Shown piece by piece: positions 6,412 to 23,581 of a stretch of DNA of 64,000 nucleotides. Every line of letters begins with the position of its first letter. The stretch's first letter is position 1. The notes under the pieces were generated by a model, which did no database searches, had not been told where the DNA came from, and worked only from the letters and a program-made list of their open reading frames with translations. Both the position numbers and the translations under genes were made by a program. The DNA lies in assembly GCA_028289425.1 (NCBI GenBank), contig JANQPL010000012.1, forward strand, positions 186,001 through 250,000. Reading direction: 5' to 3'. This stretch comes from Alphaproteobacteria bacterium. Lineage in GTDB: Bacteria; Pseudomonadota; Alphaproteobacteria; JANQMY01.

Positions 6412-6936
6412 ATGCACACGAAAGAGCCCGAAAAAGGCCGGTTTTCTCTGGGTCCAATGGTCGATTTGCTGGGGGATGTGGTTGGTTTTCTGAACGATCC
6501 CGAGGCCGACTCAGAACCGGATTGCGAAATCTTGTTTTCCAACGAGATTGCCGGATTTCATTACCCAAAACCTCATTTGACGGGCCTTTTGAGGCATTTG
6601 GTCAAAACTGCGGCCGACGAAAATGACAGCACGGTGTCTCTGATTCTGACCTGCCTGGTCACTGAAGAAAGTCGTGTGCACTTTTCGGTTGTCTCGCCAT
6701 TTGGAACTTTTGCAGGGCTTGGGCGCGACGAATTGTTGGATCAATTGAATGGCAGCCCCGACCGGGACAGCGGCATCAAGGAAACGCCGAATACGCCATT
6801 TTGGCGGGGCGGGACAGTGGACGAAGAAGCCGACCTGCTTTTGGAGCCGCTGCCCCTCGGGGGCACTCGGGCGACAATCGTTTTTCCGGAAGCCCGCATT
6901 GCGTGGCGCGACGGATCGGTCAGTCCTGATCGTTGA
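6412..6936 (+). CDS. Uncharacterised protein, possibly a degenerate histidine-kinase ATPase domain
   Basis: The ATG at 6412 follows GGGTGGGAGG with 5-base spacing and gives 174 aa; an in-frame ATG at 6283 would add 43 residues without a clear ribosome site. The pattern LTGLLRHLVKTAADENDSTV...VHFSVVSPFGTFAGLGRDELLDQL...GGTRATIVFP follows the order of N-box, D-box and final GT-lP strand of GHKL ATPase domains. The catalytic Asn and the Asp of DxG are replaced, so ATP binding is unlikely. This relation is an inference from a pattern only. The 3' end overlaps the convergent Crp-family gene by 17 bp. Confidence 0.65.
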   Translation: MHTKEPEKGRFSLGPMVDLLGDVVGFLNDPEADSEPDCEILFSNEIAGFHYPKPHLTGLLRHLVKTAADENDSTVSLILTCLVTEESRVHFSVVSPFGTFAGLGRDELLDQLNGSPDRDSGIKETPNTPFWRGGTVDEEADLLLEPLPLGGTRATIVFPEARIAWRDGSVSPDR

Positions 6937-7630
6937 CAATATCAGCCAGTCGCTTTGGATCGTGAATGGTGACGATGCCGTCTGCGTGAGTTACCAACCC
7001 CATTTTCTGCCATTTATTGAGAGTCTTGTTGGTGCTTTCGCGCGAAAACGCGATGGACTGGCCGATCTCAAACTGCGACATCGACAAGGAGATTTGAACC
7101 CCATCCGGCGTTTGGACCCCATGAGACTCGGCCAACTCCAATAGGGCTTTGGCCAATCGCGGGTCAAGACCGCGGAACAGTGCGTCGGCCAGCAGCTCGC
7201 TGGTGCGCCGCAGGCGGTGGGTCAGCATGCGCATCACGATGACCGACACATCGGGCTCCTGCCGAATAAATCCCAAAAACGCACTCGACCTAATGAAGCA
7301 AAGCGAAACGTCGGTTTGCGCGACGGCGTTGGCCGAGCGCGGCAAGTCATCAAGAACACCCATCTCGCCGAAAAGGTCCCCCGGGCCATAACGGTTGACC
7401 ACCATGCCCCGGTCATTGGGGGAGGCGAGGGTGATTTGCACCAGCCCCTCGTCGATAAGATAGAGGCCGTCGATTTCATCGCCAGCCTGAAAGATTTCCT
7501 TCTTTTGCTCGATATGCCGTTTGTGCCCCAGTGCCCTCAGCTTTTCCCGCTGCTGCTCCGTCAACATTTCGGCAAAGGCAGGGCTCTTCGGCCCCGCTAT
7601 TCCCATACCCAGCCCCATTGGGTCCTCCAC
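6920..7630 (-). CDS. Crp/Fnr-family transcriptional regulator
   Basis: The 236-aa protein has a cyclic-nucleotide-binding-like beta-barrel (residues about 38-125, with YGPGDLFGEMGVLDDLPRSA), a dimer helix (VIVMRMLTHRLRRTSELLADA) and a winged helix with recognition segment SRESTNKTLNKWQKMGLV near residue 200. It has a single Cys, so no FNR-type iron-sulfur cluster is possible. The effector pocket retains GE..(10)..RSA, a pattern seen in cNMP-binding members, but the ligand cannot be named. The recognition helix differs from both CRP (RETVxR) and FNR (ExxSR), so its DNA site cannot be predicted. Confidence 0.9.
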   Translation of the reverse strand: MEDPMGLGMGIAGPKSPAFAEMLTEQQREKLRALGHKRHIEQKKEIFQAGDEIDGLYLIDEGLVQITLASPNDRGMVVNRYGPGDLFGEMGVLDDLPRSANAVAQTDVSLCFIRSSAFLGFIRQEPDVSVIVMRMLTHRLRRTSELLADALFRGLDPRLAKALLELAESHGVQTPDGVQISLSMSQFEIGQSIAFSRESTNKTLNKWQKMGLVTHADGIVTIHDPKRLADIVNDQD

Positions 7631-7728: not shown

Positions 7729-7756
7729 AAAAACCCGCCCCCAGACAGGAGGCGGG
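7729..7756 (-). terminator. Rho-independent terminator of the 41-aa peptide gene
   Basis: Reading the minus strand, CCCGCC (7756-7751) pairs with GGCGGG (7739-7734), plus two further G-C pairs after a mismatch. A run of five T (7733-7729) follows directly. It lies 37 bp after the stop of the small peptide gene at 7793 and would end its transcript before the Crp gene. Confidence 0.8.
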
Positions 7757-7792
7757 CGGACAAAAGCTATTTCGTCTGTATAATGAGTAGTG

Positions 7793-7918
7793 CTAGAGGC
7801 AGACCCAACCAAATCCTGGTATGTAAACCCACCAGCACGCAGATGCGTTACCCGTCGATGCGAGAAGAATGCCGGTGGCAAGAACGCCGGCTGCTGCTGC
7901 AATTGTTGCAAGTTTCAT
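7793..7918 (-). CDS. 41-aa secreted aromatic peptide precursor
   Basis: The ATG at 7918 is preceded by GGGG with 9-base spacing, and the stop TAG is at 7793. The product has a classical signal peptide: MK, then a hydrophobic stretch (LATIAAAAGVLATGILLA), then STGNASA with an AxA cleavage site after residue 27. The predicted mature part is only CWWVYIPGFGWVCL (14 residues). It has Cys at positions 1 and 13, three Trp, one Tyr and two Gly. A disulfide could close a 13-residue ring. A good terminator lies just downstream, so this is probably a monocistronic gene. No maturation or export genes adjoin it. No family is recognised. A lipoprotein is possible, but the residue at -3 is Ala, a poor lipobox. 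Confidence 0.65.
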   Translation of the reverse strand: MKLATIAAAAGVLATGILLASTGNASACWWVYIPGFGWVCL

Positions 7919-8026
7919 TGTGCTTTACCCCATCATTACCGTATGCGGAACTTATAATGGGGGCAGCTTAGTCGACGCGGTATGTGTGCCGGTATGAGGC
8001 GCTTCACTAATTCCGGAATGAAATTG

Positions 8027-11000
8027 TTAGAAACGTATTGTGCCGGCAACTGTGAAGGTGGTTGCGTTTACAAAGGATGGATTGGCGGCGTCACCCAGCA
8101 ACGTGTTCAGATCTTGGTAGCGAAAGTCTGCGCCAAATATATTTTTGATCCCTACACTGACATCTCCTGTCCCCGCGCGGAATCGATGGGACACAAGCAG
8201 ATCAAATGTCACAAAATCCTCGCTTGTTGAGGTCAGGGTTGAGAATGGAGTTGGGCTGAGGTCTTGGTGGACAAATGTGCCCTTTGCTTCCACCTTGGTG
8301 CCCCAAGGGGCAAAATAACGTGCTGTTATTGGTAGTACAGCAGTTTCAATTGTATCGGGTGCATTTGCGGTGCTTGGACCGAAAAAGGCGCCACCAAGCT
8401 GAACTTTGCTGTAGCCGGCGTTGACACTCAATTGTGTTGAAGCCGATGGAAACACGTTCAAAAGGCCCGAGATCTCAAGTAGCTCGAAATCGGCCAAGGC
8501 GGAGCTTGTGAGGCTGAGATTGGGTATCCTTAATTCAGATTCACGCCAAACTGCTTTAATTTGTCCACTGACCAAGTCTGGCGATACATAATCGACCGCA
8601 ACAGCCGCATGTTCATTCGTCGAGGAAACACCGTCGTCGAAGAATTGCGGAAATCCTGCTATCTGGGTGGGTTGTAGTGAAAGTGGTGTGTCAGGGTTCG
8701 TTCCGGCACCCTGGGTGTAGGCGAATCGGACATTTAGATTATCTGTCAGTCTGTGCACTATGCCGAATTTGGGCTGCAGTTGATCGAAGCCGTTTGTAGA
8801 TGGATTCAGATCGTCGTGTGCAACACCAATTGTGAATGTCGTATCCGGCTGAAGTTTGACATACGCGTAACTGTATACGCTCAGCTTCCGCCTGTCGCTC
8901 AAGAACCGAGCACTAGTCACGCATGACACCAAAAAGGCAGGGCAAACGCCACCGAATGAAGGACTTGCGTCGATACGCGAAACGAATCTGACCTCATCTT
9001 CACTTAGTTCAATCCCACTCACAATGGAGACGATTCTGTGTTCGAATATGTTTTGTGTTTGAAACGCAAATCCATTGATGTCGGAGTCGACACTTGCCTG
9101 GGAAACAGGTGATTCCACGAAAACTTCAGAGTCGAAATCGCGATACTCGAAATTCGCGATCAGAGTGTTCGATGCGTTTAGGTCAAATCGCCCACCAATC
9201 CGACCGGAGAAGCTTTCGATCTTAGTTCGGTCGGATCGGGAAAAGTCATCGGGTTCGAAGTTTAGAGATAGGTCACCTTGGTCTGTGTTTCGGTAACGAA
9301 ATTCCGCCTGAAGACGAATACGAGACGTCACCTCTCCCTGCGCGAAGACAGATAGAATATCGTGCCGCACGTCATTGTTATCGCGCACGCCGTCAGTTTC
9401 GTAGTGGAATTGGCTAATATTGTAGCCGATCTTCCCTTGCAGACCCGAGAGAATGAATTCGTTGGCAGCGGTACCATAGTTTCCCGCGAGTCCTGCTACA
9501 GTGAGCTTGTGTCCATTGGACTCGAAGGCGGTAGTGTATTCGTTGAAGCTGATGCCGTTGAAGCCCGCGCCGCCCAAGAAGGCGAGATCCGTTTCGGCAA
9601 GCTGTGGCCGGACGGGATCTTGCGTCGATGGCTGAAGGATTTGAGCTTTGCGTATCGAGCTTGCGCGCGCAAAGTCTTGGAAGGGTTGGTCGGCGAGCAG
9701 GTCTCCGTGGAACCGATAACCCGCATGATCCGCGGGGGCACTTGAAATGGCACGGGAGGCTTCCGACAAGCCAAACTCTTCAAGACCCAGCGTACGGTAG
9801 ATGCCGCTCAACACGGATCCGCGCACGGCCATATCGTCGGCCAAAGCGCCGCGCGTGCGATAGACGGCTCGATTGTCGCTTCTCGCAATACTCTCCGTGA
9901 GAGACCGCAGGGCTTGAATGGGCTGGTTCTCGAGGAACAGCTGTATGGCTTCATAAAACCATGGAGTGGGATCTGCGGGGTCGCGTTCCTTTGCCAGCCC
10001 ATATTGCGACAACGCTTTGTCGCTACGCCGTTCTTCGAAATAAGCACGGCCCAGATAGCTGCGATAGAGGCTCACATTTGGATCCAGCGTGACCGCCAAT
10101 TCGATGTGGTCGCGGCCTTCCGTCAGGTCCCCTTGTCGGATCTTAGTTAAGCCCAATCCAAATCGTGCCGCGGGATCGTGACTATCCTGTTCGATCGCCG
10201 TGCCGAACGACTGAACCGCATCTCGCAGCGCAAGTTTATGCAATGATATGAACCCCAAGATCGTGTGGGCACGAGATGAGGTCGTCGGGTTTGAGCGAAT
10301 GCTGCTCGCGAGCTTTTGCGCCAAAGCCACGTTGTCATTGATTAAGGCGAGTTCCGCGCGCCTCAATGTCATTAGGGAGCTGGCGGATTGCTGTTGGTCG
10401 AAGCGGTTGGCGGAAGCAAACGCCTCTTCCACACGTCCCAGAGATTGCAGTGCGTAGGTGAGGGTGAGCGCCACCGACTCTGACGAGGGAAATCGTCTTG
10501 CTGCTTCTTCCGCTGCGGCCAAGTTTGCAGCTTTGTCATCTGAGGTGCGGGATTGAACGACATCAATCAGTATGCTGAGTGCTTGTACGTCGGCCGTTTG
10601 GGGCTGCCCTGACAAAAGCGCGCGCGCCTGTTTGAGATTGCCAGCCTGAACCGCGGTCTGCAGATCCGTTGGAACGGCACGGACGATCGGGTAATAAAGT
10701 GTCCATTGCACTTCTTCCAGCGGATCGACGAGGCCGCGCCACAGGGTCACGTCTTTCGGCCGGTCGCGCGACAGCTTGCGAGGGGCCGTGGTTTCGTCGG
10801 CTGCAACTGTCTCGCCCTGTGCGGCATAGATGACATGATGAGATTGCGCGTTCTCCGCGCTGACAGTGCCTTCGAAGACTTGGATGAACGAGCGGTTGTT
10901 TTGCGCGTCCACCTGCACCAAAAATTCGGTTCCCTCGATCCCGCCATTTATGTGTGGTGTGTGCACGTCGAGCTTCTGGGGCGTTCGACTAAAAATGAAG

Positions 11001-11347
11001 GTTGCGCCCCATAGGACCTCAAGAAGGGTGCGTGCCGTCTGCCGTTCCCGGAAGGTGACGTTTGAGGTCGTCTTGAGGCGAACGATGGTTTGTTCTCGAA
11101 TGAGGCGGATGGTGGCTTTGCCGTCCCGTCCGGTGCGCACGGAATGGCCGGGACAAAGACGGTCCCCGGGCTCTGTACGCCGCCAAATCTCGGCGCCGGA
11201 CAAGGCTGTCTCAACACGGCCTTGGGCGGCTTCGACGATCGCCACATGAACGGCACAGGTTTGATTTTCCGCTCTGGCGATCGACGCCCCGCACAGCCAA
11301 ATGAGACTTGCCAGCAGCAATGCCTTGGATGGGTATCCAGCCCGCAT
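8027..11347 (-). CDS. FecR-domain / TPR / outer-membrane beta-barrel fusion protein
   Basis: The 1106-aa protein has a signal peptide (residues 1-26), then a FecR-type domain (about 30-200, with the hallmark GGIEGTEFLVQV and the following FEGTVSAEN). TPR repeats follow at about 220-560 (SFGTAIEQDSHDPAARFGLG, ALSQYGLAKERDPADPTPWF). A roughly 500-residue C-terminal beta-barrel (about 600-1106) has alternating hydrophobic/aromatic strands and a terminal Phe (FTVAGTIRF). Barrel strands such as HRFRAGTGDVSVGIKNIF resemble TonB-dependent receptors, but no plug domain is seen. FecR domains normally sense a periplasmic signal; here the sensor appears physically joined to its own barrel. GAGGGATTA precedes the ATG. 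The CHASE2 cyclase gene lies upstream on the same strand with a 185-bp gap. Confidence 0.85.
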   Translation of the reverse strand: MRAGYPSKALLLASLIWLCGASIARAENQTCAVHVAIVEAAQGRVETALSGAEIWRRTEPGDRLCPGHSVRTGRDGKATIRLIREQTIVRLKTTSNVTFRERQTARTLLEVLWGATFIFSRTPQKLDVHTPHINGGIEGTEFLVQVDAQNNRSFIQVFEGTVSAENAQSHHVIYAAQGETVAADETTAPRKLSRDRPKDVTLWRGLVDPLEEVQWTLYYPIVRAVPTDLQTAVQAGNLKQARALLSGQPQTADVQALSILIDVVQSRTSDDKAANLAAAEEAARRFPSSESVALTLTYALQSLGRVEEAFASANRFDQQQSASSLMTLRRAELALINDNVALAQKLASSIRSNPTTSSRAHTILGFISLHKLALRDAVQSFGTAIEQDSHDPAARFGLGLTKIRQGDLTEGRDHIELAVTLDPNVSLYRSYLGRAYFEERRSDKALSQYGLAKERDPADPTPWFYEAIQLFLENQPIQALRSLTESIARSDNRAVYRTRGALADDMAVRGSVLSGIYRTLGLEEFGLSEASRAISSAPADHAGYRFHGDLLADQPFQDFARASSIRKAQILQPSTQDPVRPQLAETDLAFLGGAGFNGISFNEYTTAFESNGHKLTVAGLAGNYGTAANEFILSGLQGKIGYNISQFHYETDGVRDNNDVRHDILSVFAQGEVTSRIRLQAEFRYRNTDQGDLSLNFEPDDFSRSDRTKIESFSGRIGGRFDLNASNTLIANFEYRDFDSEVFVESPVSQASVDSDINGFAFQTQNIFEHRIVSIVSGIELSEDEVRFVSRIDASPSFGGVCPAFLVSCVTSARFLSDRRKLSVYSYAYVKLQPDTTFTIGVAHDDLNPSTNGFDQLQPKFGIVHRLTDNLNVRFAYTQGAGTNPDTPLSLQPTQIAGFPQFFDDGVSSTNEHAAVAVDYVSPDLVSGQIKAVWRESELRIPNLSLTSSALADFELLEISGLLNVFPSASTQLSVNAGYSKVQLGGAFFGPSTANAPDTIETAVLPITARYFAPWGTKVEAKGTFVHQDLSPTPFSTLTSTSEDFVTFDLLVSHRFRAGTGDVSVGIKNIFGADFRYQDLNTLLGDAANPSFVNATTFTVAGTIRF

Positions 11348-11532
11348 TAATCCCTCAAATGCGCAGTGTGTCTGCGTCGTGCTCCTCTGCTTTTAAGGGT
11401 GTATCTGATGTACCCTGCGCTGCCAAGTTGCCGGCCGAAATCAAAGGAAATTCGAGGGAAAATAGCTCCGCTTTAGCCGGATTTTGGCACGAATTGCGAA
11501 TGGGAAGGGCTAATCCAATGCGAGCCACGGGA

Positions 11533-13470
11533 TCAGTTCCTCTTTCTGACCTCTATAACGTGTATGGGCTCGTCGAAGCCCTGAAGGTAATGTTCGCCCC
11601 GATCCCGCAACTCCGCCCCCACCAAATATGGGGCAAGATTGGCTGTCGCCAGAATTCGGGTATTCAGCTCTTTATTCAGTGCCTCAAGCCGGGCAGCCAA
11701 GATGACTGGCCGCCCCTGAGCGTTGAACGCTCTCTGTCCTTCCATGCCCATGCCACCGATTGAGATTGGACCATAACTCAGGCCAATACGATTGCGCCTT
11801 GCAATCGGTCCTTCAGGTCCGTCCACACGCAGGGCAAGATTCGACAGCTCGAACACGCATTGCACGACAGCTTCCCAGTGTTTTCCCTTAGTCAGCGGTA
11901 TCTTCCAAATCGCCTTAAAACTGTCGTCGGCGGGATTGATAAAGGTTCCGCCCGCAGCTTTTACAATTTGGCCTGCTTGCGAAATGTAATCATCCATTCC
12001 GTCATAGAGGCTCGATTGGCGGCTCAATGCCGTGGCGGTGGTTGAGTCTTCAATATCGCACTTAAGACAGAGCGCATTGGCCTGGTCCGGCTGGCTTTTT
12101 GGATCGCGTTGCGTGCGCATCTTGGCCTGTTCTTCTCCGGGCACCCACAATCTGTTCCAGATGTTCAGGAGCTCAAGTTGGAATGACATGCCCAGCGGAA
12201 TGGCAAACAAGGCCATTGCATAAAGTGTGATGGTTGGGATCCAGATTTGCCACCCGGAAAAAAAGGACAGGGCAATCACCGTATACATCCAAGCAATGCC
12301 CGCAACCAAAGGCACGCTCACGTAAAGGGGAGTGCGCGTAACAAGCAGCGACAGAAGCAAACCAATCCCAACAATGATAACCGTCGATACCAGCGGCGTG
12401 GTGCGCTTGAGTGTGCTTTGATGATGGAGGTTGAGAAAGGCGGTCGCCGCAATTTCGACGCCCGAAAGATCAATGCCATTCTCTTGTGAAAAGACCGTCG
12501 AGAAACGATCCGATTGTTGGTAAGTGTCCAGATGAACTTGACCGATGAACACGGTCTTGCCCGCCAGATCGGGAAACGCATCCGTTTCCAAAAGGGCAAA
12601 GGCGTCTTTAACGGGAATTGTTCCCGGACCGCCGTAGAAGTTCAAATAGTGACTTTCATTGTGCCGAAGGAGCGAGACCGTCCTTTGCGCCGCTTCATCA
12701 AGTTGGGTCAGGCGTTCTACAGTGTCAGCCGGCGGCAAAGCGTTCCTCTTAAGATAATCTGAGATCGCTTCCTCCGCATCCGGCCCTGTAGCATTCTTGA
12801 ACAGGGCCTTTCGATACGGTGCCAATAGCGCCAAGGTGGGCAGGGTTGCCATATCGCCGAATAAGGCATGGCTCGTCCAGAACTGGTTGACACGGTCGGG
12901 TCTTGTCGGAATGGGAAAGGGACCTGACGCAAAGACAGCGTCCTCAATCTCGGGAATAATCGGATGCAGCTCTTGCATCAAATGTTCATCGGAAGTGAAC
13001 AATCGGGATTTAATGCGGCGCAGGCCAACAACGCCGCCGAACTCCCGCATCTGAGATGCTAAGAGCCGATCTTCTTCTTCATTGCCCATCTTTTCAAAGG
13101 ATATGTCGATGGCAATCGCAGCCGGGCCTGCGGACGCGATGCGCCCCAGCAAATATGCCAAAAGACATCTTGGGATCGGGCCAGTAAACGATCGTACTCT
13201 GTTCGTCGGCCGCAGGTCGCACGTGTAACCGCGTACGTTTATTTCAGCGGGCAAGCCGCGCGCTTCGGAAATGTCGTCCACATTGATTACGACTGCCTCT
13301 GGCGGCGGAGCGACTTCACCGCGTAAGGTGAAGAGCAACCACAACCCGATATCTTCTTCGGCATCCCAATCCATTGCGAAACAGAAGGACAGGCCGGCGG
13401 CAATCACCAGTACGCTGGTTATGAGAATGTCGCGCGTGCTGACGATGCGTTTCCAAAGCCCGGCCAACAT
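11533..13470 (-). CDS. CHASE2-domain adenylate/guanylate cyclase
   Basis: The 645-aa protein has an N-terminal transmembrane helix (about 14-32), then a periplasmic CHASE2 sensor (about 45-350, with VVINVDD, AIAIDISFE and GKTVFIGQ). Three membrane helices follow (about 360-440), then a C-terminal class III cyclase domain (about 470-645). In the cyclase domain both metal-binding Asp are kept (LKCDIEDS and NPADDSF) and the transition-state Arg is kept (AARLEAL). The ribose-orienting Asn of VNLAARL is Ile (VILAARL), so activity may be altered. CHASE2 cyclases paired with FecR proteins are known in bacteria. The pairing here with a FecR-barrel fusion suggests signalling from outer membrane to cytoplasmic nucleotide. 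It lies 22 bp after the GST gene. Confidence 0.88.
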   Translation of the reverse strand: MLAGLWKRIVSTRDILITSVLVIAAGLSFCFAMDWDAEEDIGLWLLFTLRGEVAPPPEAVVINVDDISEARGLPAEINVRGYTCDLRPTNRVRSFTGPIPRCLLAYLLGRIASAGPAAIAIDISFEKMGNEEEDRLLASQMREFGGVVGLRRIKSRLFTSDEHLMQELHPIIPEIEDAVFASGPFPIPTRPDRVNQFWTSHALFGDMATLPTLALLAPYRKALFKNATGPDAEEAISDYLKRNALPPADTVERLTQLDEAAQRTVSLLRHNESHYLNFYGGPGTIPVKDAFALLETDAFPDLAGKTVFIGQVHLDTYQQSDRFSTVFSQENGIDLSGVEIAATAFLNLHHQSTLKRTTPLVSTVIIVGIGLLLSLLVTRTPLYVSVPLVAGIAWMYTVIALSFFSGWQIWIPTITLYAMALFAIPLGMSFQLELLNIWNRLWVPGEEQAKMRTQRDPKSQPDQANALCLKCDIEDSTTATALSRQSSLYDGMDDYISQAGQIVKAAGGTFINPADDSFKAIWKIPLTKGKHWEAVVQCVFELSNLALRVDGPEGPIARRNRIGLSYGPISIGGMGMEGQRAFNAQGRPVILAARLEALNKELNTRILATANLAPYLVGAELRDRGEHYLQGFDEPIHVIEVRKRN

Positions 13471-18641: not shown

Positions 18642-19307
18642 TCAATACCCTGTTGAAATGGGCACTTTCGACCCAGGCTGAATGAACGCCGTGCCATTGG
18701 TGTGATAGCAAAGCATCGCCTGGTAGTGAACAACATGGCCGTTCGGCTGCCGTTCCCTCGACGTGACGGGTCGACACGGCGCATTGCTCGCAATCAAGGG
18801 GGTGTCGGACGACGCCTTTTGGGGAGCCACGTGCACCCGGTTTGGATATCCGTCTTGCGCAACGGGTCCGCCGGCTAAGCGATCATTGATGGAATCGCCG
18901 CTGGGCGCCGGCTGGCTGCTCGGCGCAGGCGCTGCCGGCGCGTAGCCACATCCGCCATCCGAATAATGGCCATGACATCCATGATGATGGTGGTGGTGGT
19001 CATGCGTGTGCCGGTGCTTGCGTTTCTTGTGATCCAGATAGAGCAGAGCGGCAACGCCGATGGCGATGGTCGGCACGATAATGGCCGCGCCGGACCGATG
19101 CCGGTGGCCGTACCCATGCCGGTAATGGCCATGATATTTGGAATAGCCATAGCCGTGGCGATATCCATGGCCATATCCGCCGTGGCTGTACCCATAGCTA
19201 TAACCGTAGTGGTACCCGCCCGCCTGGGCGGCGGTAATGCTGCTCATCGAAACAAATAGGGCGGCTGCAACAACAGTTGTGCCGATCTTCCCAAGACGCC
19301 GTTTCAT
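18642..19307 (-). CDS. Exported Gly/Tyr/His-rich protein, function unknown
   Basis: The ATG at 19307 follows GGAG with 9-base spacing. The 221-aa product has a signal peptide (1-29, ending ITAAQA). A GYxHGY-type repeat region (about 30-75) is followed by a hydrophobic helix (SGAAIIVPTIAIGVAALLYL), a His block with six consecutive His (HTHDHHHHHHGCHGH), and a C-terminal segment with three Cys (PCRPVTSRERQPNGHVVHYQ and AMLCYHTNGTAFIQPG). The His cluster could bind Zn or Ni. Similar Gly/His-rich exported proteins with the C-terminal motif occur in alphaproteobacteria without known function. Confidence 0.75.
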   Translation of the reverse strand: MKRRLGKIGTTVVAAALFVSMSSITAAQAGGYHYGYSYGYSHGGYGHGYRHGYGYSKYHGHYRHGYGHRHRSGAAIIVPTIAIGVAALLYLDHKKRKHRHTHDHHHHHHGCHGHYSDGGCGYAPAAPAPSSQPAPSGDSINDRLAGGPVAQDGYPNRVHVAPQKASSDTPLIASNAPCRPVTSRERQPNGHVVHYQAMLCYHTNGTAFIQPGSKVPISTGY

Positions 19308-19428
19308 TTGTTTTCTCCATCTCCTGGTGTGCACATTTCCCCAGTCGAAGCACATAGACTACCATAGAAACGAGGCGGAATTATGCCATGGTTGGGCGGA
19401 TGCCGCGCATCACAATTTCGGGGTAATC

Positions 19429-22603: not shown

Positions 22604-23398
22604 TCAGGGAGGGGAAGGTGACCGTTGCAAGCTCAGGCCGCCCACGCCGGTAATGTCGTTGGAGCGGAAATTCAAAGCGCCGGTGTTTAGGTTGCCCAGC
22701 CCATCTGCGCCGATATTGCCGACGCCGTTCAGGATGCCCAGGTTTTCGTTCCCCGAAGACTGCGAGTGAATGTTTAGCATTCCGTTCAGCGCACCCACAT
22801 TGCTGTCTCCGCCGCTCGAGGGCGAATATGGATTGATATTGCCGTTGAGAATGCCTTCATTATCGTCCCCGGCGAATTCGGCATTCGGGTTTATGTTGCC
22901 ATTTAACAGGCCCACATTGTCGTCACCGGCACTTCTCGAATTGGGATTGAAGTTCCCATTGAGAAAGCCCTTATTGTCATCGCCCGCAATGTCTGCAATC
23001 GGACTGAAATTACCGTTTAAAAAACCGAGATTATCGTCGCCGCCCGATCGCGATTCCGAGTTGTGATTGCCGTTGAGAATCCCGGCATTGCCGCTTCCCG
23101 TATTTTCGGTTGCACCAAAATTCAGGTTGCCGTTCAAGATGCCGCTGTTGTTATTGCCGACCGACTCATCAGCGCCTTTGTTGCCAAGTCCGTTTAGCAG
23201 GCCCTTATTGCCCGAGCCGCTGTTCAACAGACCCTTATTGTCGGAGCCGCTATTCAAAAAGCCGTAATTGCCGTTTTGCCCATAATTGATGATTGTCAGC
23301 TTGCCGAGCGAATGGTCGGACAGCATTTCCGCCGATGCTGTAGTGGTGAAGCATGAAGCGGCAAGGCACGCACCGCCAATAAGCCAAAGCCTCTTCAT
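22604..23398 (-). CDS. Exported protein of 19-20-residue Asn/Gly repeats
   Basis: The ATG at 23398 follows GGGGA with 8-base spacing. The 264-aa product has a signal peptide (1-22, ending TTTASA). Nearly all of the mature part then consists of about nine tandem repeats of 19-20 residues with consensus G-D/S-D/G-N-x-G-F/I/L-L-N-G-N-x-N followed by six variable residues (for example GDDNKGFLNGNFNPNSRSA). The NxGxLN core resembles the NxGxGN pentapeptide-type repeats of mycobacterial PPE proteins and would suit a beta-solenoid. Function is unknown; an adhesin, matrix or ice/metal-binding surface are possibilities. It is read convergent to the glucosidase gene. Confidence 0.75.
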   Translation of the reverse strand: MKRLWLIGGACLAASCFTTTASAEMLSDHSLGKLTIINYGQNGNYGFLNSGSDNKGLLNSGSGNKGLLNGLGNKGADESVGNNNSGILNGNLNFGATENTGSGNAGILNGNHNSESRSGGDDNLGFLNGNFSPIADIAGDDNKGFLNGNFNPNSRSAGDDNVGLLNGNINPNAEFAGDDNEGILNGNINPYSPSSGGDSNVGALNGMLNIHSQSSGNENLGILNGVGNIGADGLGNLNTGALNFRSNDITGVGGLSLQRSPSPP

Positions 23399-23581
23399 TA
23401 GGCGTTCCCCAGTCATAAAGTTTCCCAAACTGAGACAAAGTTAGTTGGGCATTTTGGTTAATTGAAGAAGGATTTTCCCGGATGCCGGTTACCAAGAGAA
23501 AGTGAAGCGTCGGAGGCGCGATGAATGCACTGCCGATCTTGGCCGCCACGGCGTAGCCGTTTTGTGCCTAGCCCTTACCTA

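Follow-up and report, generated by a model that had tools for sequence, protein, structure and literature searches.

The question raised by this locus is whether a 41-codon open reading frame (ORF) lying in true intergenic space, with both flanking genes on the same strand, is a genuine gene for a very small exported peptide or a frame that merely resembles one. The first-pass annotation of the window (the whole 64-kb stretch of DNA analysed here) had described a seemingly monocistronic signal-peptide gene with an AxA site, a good terminator and a 14-residue mature tail with two Cys residues.

The reading frame and its predicted export signal

The ORF was found exactly where it had been annotated, on the minus strand (a strand that the annotation had left unnamed), and comprises 41 codons followed by TAG (Table 1). 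Its start is unambiguous because the frame holds a single ATG and is closed by a stop three codons 5' of it (open frame of 43 residues). The GGGGU located 8 nt before the ATG is a possible ribosome site of moderate strength and good spacing.

The product, MKLATIAAAAGVLATGILLASTGNASACWWVYIPGFGWVCL, was split into MKLATIAAAAGVLATGILLASTGNASA and CWWVYIPGFGWVCL. The n-region MK is followed by an uncharged h-region, LATIAAAAGVLATGILLA, and by the c-region STGNASA, in which A-S-A directly precedes Cys28. All the elements of a small protein exported by Sec and processed by signal peptidase I, namely a positive n-region, a hydrophobic h-region and an AxA site, were thus recognized by a home-made detector and by reading of the sequence. 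This supported the annotated signal peptide and AxA site as well as a predicted 14-residue mature tail having Cys at positions 1 and 13.

The location of Cys28, precisely at +1 after Ser-Ala, would also suit a tiny lipoprotein in which this Cys is the lipidated first residue, and small lipoproteins are frequent among rhizobial small proteins (PMC10117765). However, the site reads ASAC, and neither its Ala at -3 nor the Asn at -4 suits the lipobox [LVI][ASTVI][GAS]C; a c-region of about 7 residues is also too long for one. The c-region is better suited to signal peptidase I than to lipidation, and we consider a lipoprotein quite improbable.

Table 1. Features of the ORF and its surroundings (window positions; all on the minus strand).
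Feature	Position	Strand	Basis or remark
ORF: predicted signal peptide (residues 1-27) and 14-residue Trp-rich, Cys-flanked tail	7793..7918	-	
Predicted Sec signal peptide MKLATIAAAAGVLATGILLASTGNASA, signal-peptidase-I type	7838..7918	-	sequence reading; home-made detector, not SignalP
Predicted mature peptide CWWVYIPGFGWVCL	7796..7837	-	sequence reading; computed properties; weak hairpin model
GGGGU, possible Shine-Dalgarno sequence	7927..7931	-	inference
108-nt spacer between upstream gene and ORF	7919..8026	-	scan of this strand: no consensus promoter or terminator
Intrinsic terminator, 10-bp stem, loop of 5, T run	7733..7757	-	computed
FecR-TPR-TonB-barrel protein, 1106 residues, upstream neighbour, possibly co-transcribed	8027..11347	-	profile search
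Crp/Fnr-type regulator, downstream neighbour beyond the terminator	6920..7630	-	profile search

Chance expectation and the search for relatives

The frequency of such ORFs was examined with the detector, which required a Lys or Arg close to the N-terminus, a highly hydropathic stretch of 12 uncharged residues and an AxA motif at 17-36 in an ATG-initiated ORF of 30-70 residues. On both strands of the window it matched this ORF and no other. Meanwhile, dinucleotide shuffles of the window gave 1 match in 60, i.e., 0.017 per window, a rate to be read with the ORF having been chosen post hoc from much sequence and the thresholds fixed with the ORF in view. With one such ORF in the real 64-kb sequence where the shuffles predict 0.017, a chance origin is unlikely. 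When the same detector was applied to 619 kb of unrelated bacterial loci, four matches were obtained, two of them with tails no longer than 20 residues, which amounts to about 3 such tails per Mb.

The codon usage points the other way. The third-position G+C of the ORF is 0.45, where the mean is 0.67; its synonymous codon score lies at about the 4th percentile among 40-codon segments of the real genes of the window. The rarity relative to the shuffles therefore speaks for a real gene and the codon preference against it.

These results bear on the reading that the ORF arose by chance or recently and has the appearance of a signal-peptide gene without useful translation; the terminator would then belong to the upstream FecR/barrel gene. 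The poor codon preference agrees with it, as do the selection of the ORF after much sequence had been viewed and the rate of short tails found elsewhere. The rate in the shuffled windows argues against it, together with the nearly ideal n-, h- and c-regions, which are in register, and the plausible Shine-Dalgarno sequence. We regard this reading as unlikely, though it retains appreciable weight.

Consistent with the earlier remark that no known family has this pattern, none of the Pfam, NCBIfam, PHROGs and PADLOC profiles reached its cut-off for the ORF product. The best NCBIfam line was the AgrD cyclic lactone autoinducer (TIGR04223), with an E of 0.4 and an alignment that lies mainly in the hydrophobic signal part; at 10.9 bits it falls short of the cut-off of 19 and was rejected. 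As to an adjacent gene for the partner AgrB, the scan covered the two flanking genes and the CHASE2 gene, whose products were identified as Crp/Fnr, FecR-TPR-barrel and CHASE2 proteins. The product had no match in the PDB or among plasmids and no paralogs in its own genome. Sequence searches of 59 and then 385 alphaproteobacterial genomes, a class chosen on the gene content, gave nothing above noise; given the weak search power of 41 residues, this means that there is no close relative. The pattern C-W-x-x(3)-P-G-x-G-W-x-C was absent from the 385 alphaproteobacterial genomes, and the matches to a variable-spacing pattern in 398 genomes of the phylum could be discounted as chance occurrences, with stops inside them or in the wrong frame. 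The sole pattern match in viral contigs was rejected, since it has neither a start codon nor a signal peptide. A GTDB-wide DNA pattern gave a signal peptide together with the tail in 0 of 80 among the matches listed; this pattern is loose (TRB covers Cys codons too) and so collects chance matches, and its result is not a full negative. An initial literature search on secreted Trp-rich disulfide peptides of proteobacteria yielded only plant and general antimicrobial work. The ORF is thus an orphan in every search, as would be expected of a chance frame.

Transcription and gene neighbourhood

The terminator, GCCCGCCTCC-TGTCT-GGGGGCGGGT-TTTT, starts 35 nt past the stop codon of the ORF. Its 10-bp stem is G+C-rich and followed by a T run, and its folding alone amounts to -21.1 kcal/mol, so that the good terminator annotated at first pass is indeed present. 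A second hairpin, GACGAAA-UAGC-UUUUGUC (7759-7776, minus strand), is located immediately before the terminator hairpin, giving a tandem-hairpin 3' end. The reading of the locus as an Rfam RNA was rejected.

Three Trp codons occur shortly 5' of the terminator, an arrangement that could be taken for the leader peptide of a Trp-sensing attenuator controlling the Crp gene past the terminator. Rhizobial trpL, whose leader peptide peTrpL has 14 residues, acts in such a manner and resembles the present locus as an alphaproteobacterial case of a short ORF with Trp codons ahead of a terminator (PMC10117765). Unlike trpL, the present ORF has a predicted signal peptide, which has no role in attenuation, and it is followed by a Crp/Fnr regulator rather than a Trp-related gene. 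Moreover, the fold with the terminator blocked is 19 kcal/mol worse, with no clear antiterminator. We consider an attenuator barely credible.

The annotation of the gene as monocistronic could not be upheld. Between the stop codon of the upstream FecR/TPR/TonB-barrel gene (8027) and the ORF (7918), a scan of the minus strand found no promoter-like or terminator-like site. The peptide gene may therefore be transcribed as the 3'-terminal cistron of the FecR/barrel unit. The same arrangement is compatible with a chance ORF, which would have no promoter of its own, the terminator being able to serve the gene at 8027-11347.

Conservation of the C-terminal pattern in related genomes had been named at first pass as a check on the gene; it did not emerge from the 385 genomes searched, and the sole congeneric assembly is broken at the site. 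In this assembly, the only other genome of the genus in the comparison, the order of the amidohydrolase, GST-like, CHASE2 and FecR/barrel genes is conserved on one contig, and the Crp gene with its neighbours is conserved on another. Each of the two contigs breaks off within a flanking gene, one in FecR/barrel and the other in Crp, which leaves the site of the ORF in the assembly gap. A distant genome keeps the CHASE2/FecR pair, with a barrel protein 34% identical, and the adjoining gene there encodes a different exported protein of 405 residues.

Several other features of the window were noted. The gene of a CHASE2 protein precedes the FecR-TPR-TonB-barrel gene, and the pair (8027-13470, minus strand) is kept in the congeneric genome as well as in the distant genome of the class; in the window, a protein of the pair has a cyclase-like C-terminal part that is not recognized by Pfam and looks degenerate. 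A putative exported protein at 22604-23428 (minus strand) carries degenerate Asn/Gly-rich repeats (approximately GNxNxGxLNG) with only a weak match to Pentapeptide_2. Another putative exported protein, at 18642-19355 (minus strand), combines a repeat region rich in Gly, Tyr and His with a poly-His run and belongs to no Pfam family.

The predicted peptide and known systems

The tail CWWVYIPGFGWVCL holds no charged residue, its GRAVY is +1.29 and its Wimley-White interface sum is about -8.4 kcal/mol; the monoisotopic mass computed for it is 1725.78 Da when oxidised and 1727.80 Da when reduced. Because of its lack of charge and its hydrophobicity, it is expected to partition to the membrane interface rather than to diffuse, and we prefer an envelope-bound peptide over a diffusible signal or a cationic antimicrobial. 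From the roles proposed at first pass (secreted signal, antimicrobial or envelope-active peptide), the envelope fits better, and a free signal or classical antimicrobial is doubtful for a tail so uncharged and hydrophobic.

The AlphaFold2 model computed from the single sequence places residues 4-20 in a helix and residues 30-33/37-40 in a hairpin around P-G-F; its mean pLDDT is 67 and its pTM 0.34. The hairpin is suggestive only, and the strand pairing from 33:37 to 30:40 was deduced from the secondary structure rather than from measured contacts. If it holds, Cys28 lies two residues past the partner of Cys40, so the disulfide between Cys1 and Cys13 of the mature tail is possible but not predicted by the model.

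The helix and the hairpin tail of the model, the strong hydrophobicity of this tail and the fact that many bacterial microproteins of 30-50 residues are of the signal-anchor kind would also suit an uncleaved signal-anchor microprotein, with a single membrane helix and a short periplasmic Trp-rich tail, which would itself act as the small partner of a membrane protein. It is opposed by the textbook AxA site and by the polar STGN stretch right after the helix, and we find it rather improbable.

The explanation that we favour, at about an even chance, is a genuine lineage-restricted small gene for a 41-residue Sec-exported envelope microprotein, possibly a disulfide hairpin. Judged by its sequence, this gene found in one bacterium only looks real and probably serves the export of a 14-residue uncharged Trp-rich tail. 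Expression may occur through readthrough from the upstream FecR/outer-membrane-barrel gene. Signal peptidase I would then cut after NASA, and the peptide left in the periplasm would form a short beta hairpin at the membrane interface, its Cys1-Cys13 disulfide perhaps being formed by the periplasmic oxidation machinery. An envelope-associated accessory peptide is the most likely role. It is far less probable that the ORF represents a new class, i.e., an uncharged disulfide-closed Trp-hairpin peptide of one alphaproteobacterial lineage that cooperates with the neighbouring CHASE2 protein, FecR/TPR/outer-membrane-barrel protein and Crp regulator in envelope signalling, either as the ligand of the pathway or as its exported cargo; we would give this very little credence.

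If translated, the ORF adds one more exported peptide of very small size whose tail, uncharged, Trp-rich and flanked by Cys, is unusual, and the location of the ORF beside the CHASE2 and FecR/outer-membrane-barrel pair offers a concrete hypothesis on the role of orphan exported peptides. If not translated, it illustrates how convincing chance signal-peptide ORFs can look.

Disulfide-closed beta-hairpin antimicrobials of the arenicin/thanatin type share with the predicted tail the short length, two Cys, aromatic or hydrophobic residues and possibly the hairpin. Such peptides are strongly cationic; a cationic disulfide-hairpin antimicrobial was rejected, as the tail has no charged side chain and no homology to them. 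The orphan Sec-exported or membrane small proteins of the smORF catalogue resemble the ORF product in the short frame, the signal peptide, the restriction to one lineage and the lack of functional annotation, and the ORF product differs from them in its short Trp-rich tail flanked by Cys; singletons such as this ORF are dropped from the catalogue unless they match a family (PMC11364881). An orphan exported microprotein is thus a common kind, and the Cys-flanked, uncharged, Trp-rich tail is its distinctive part; nothing categorically new has emerged from it.
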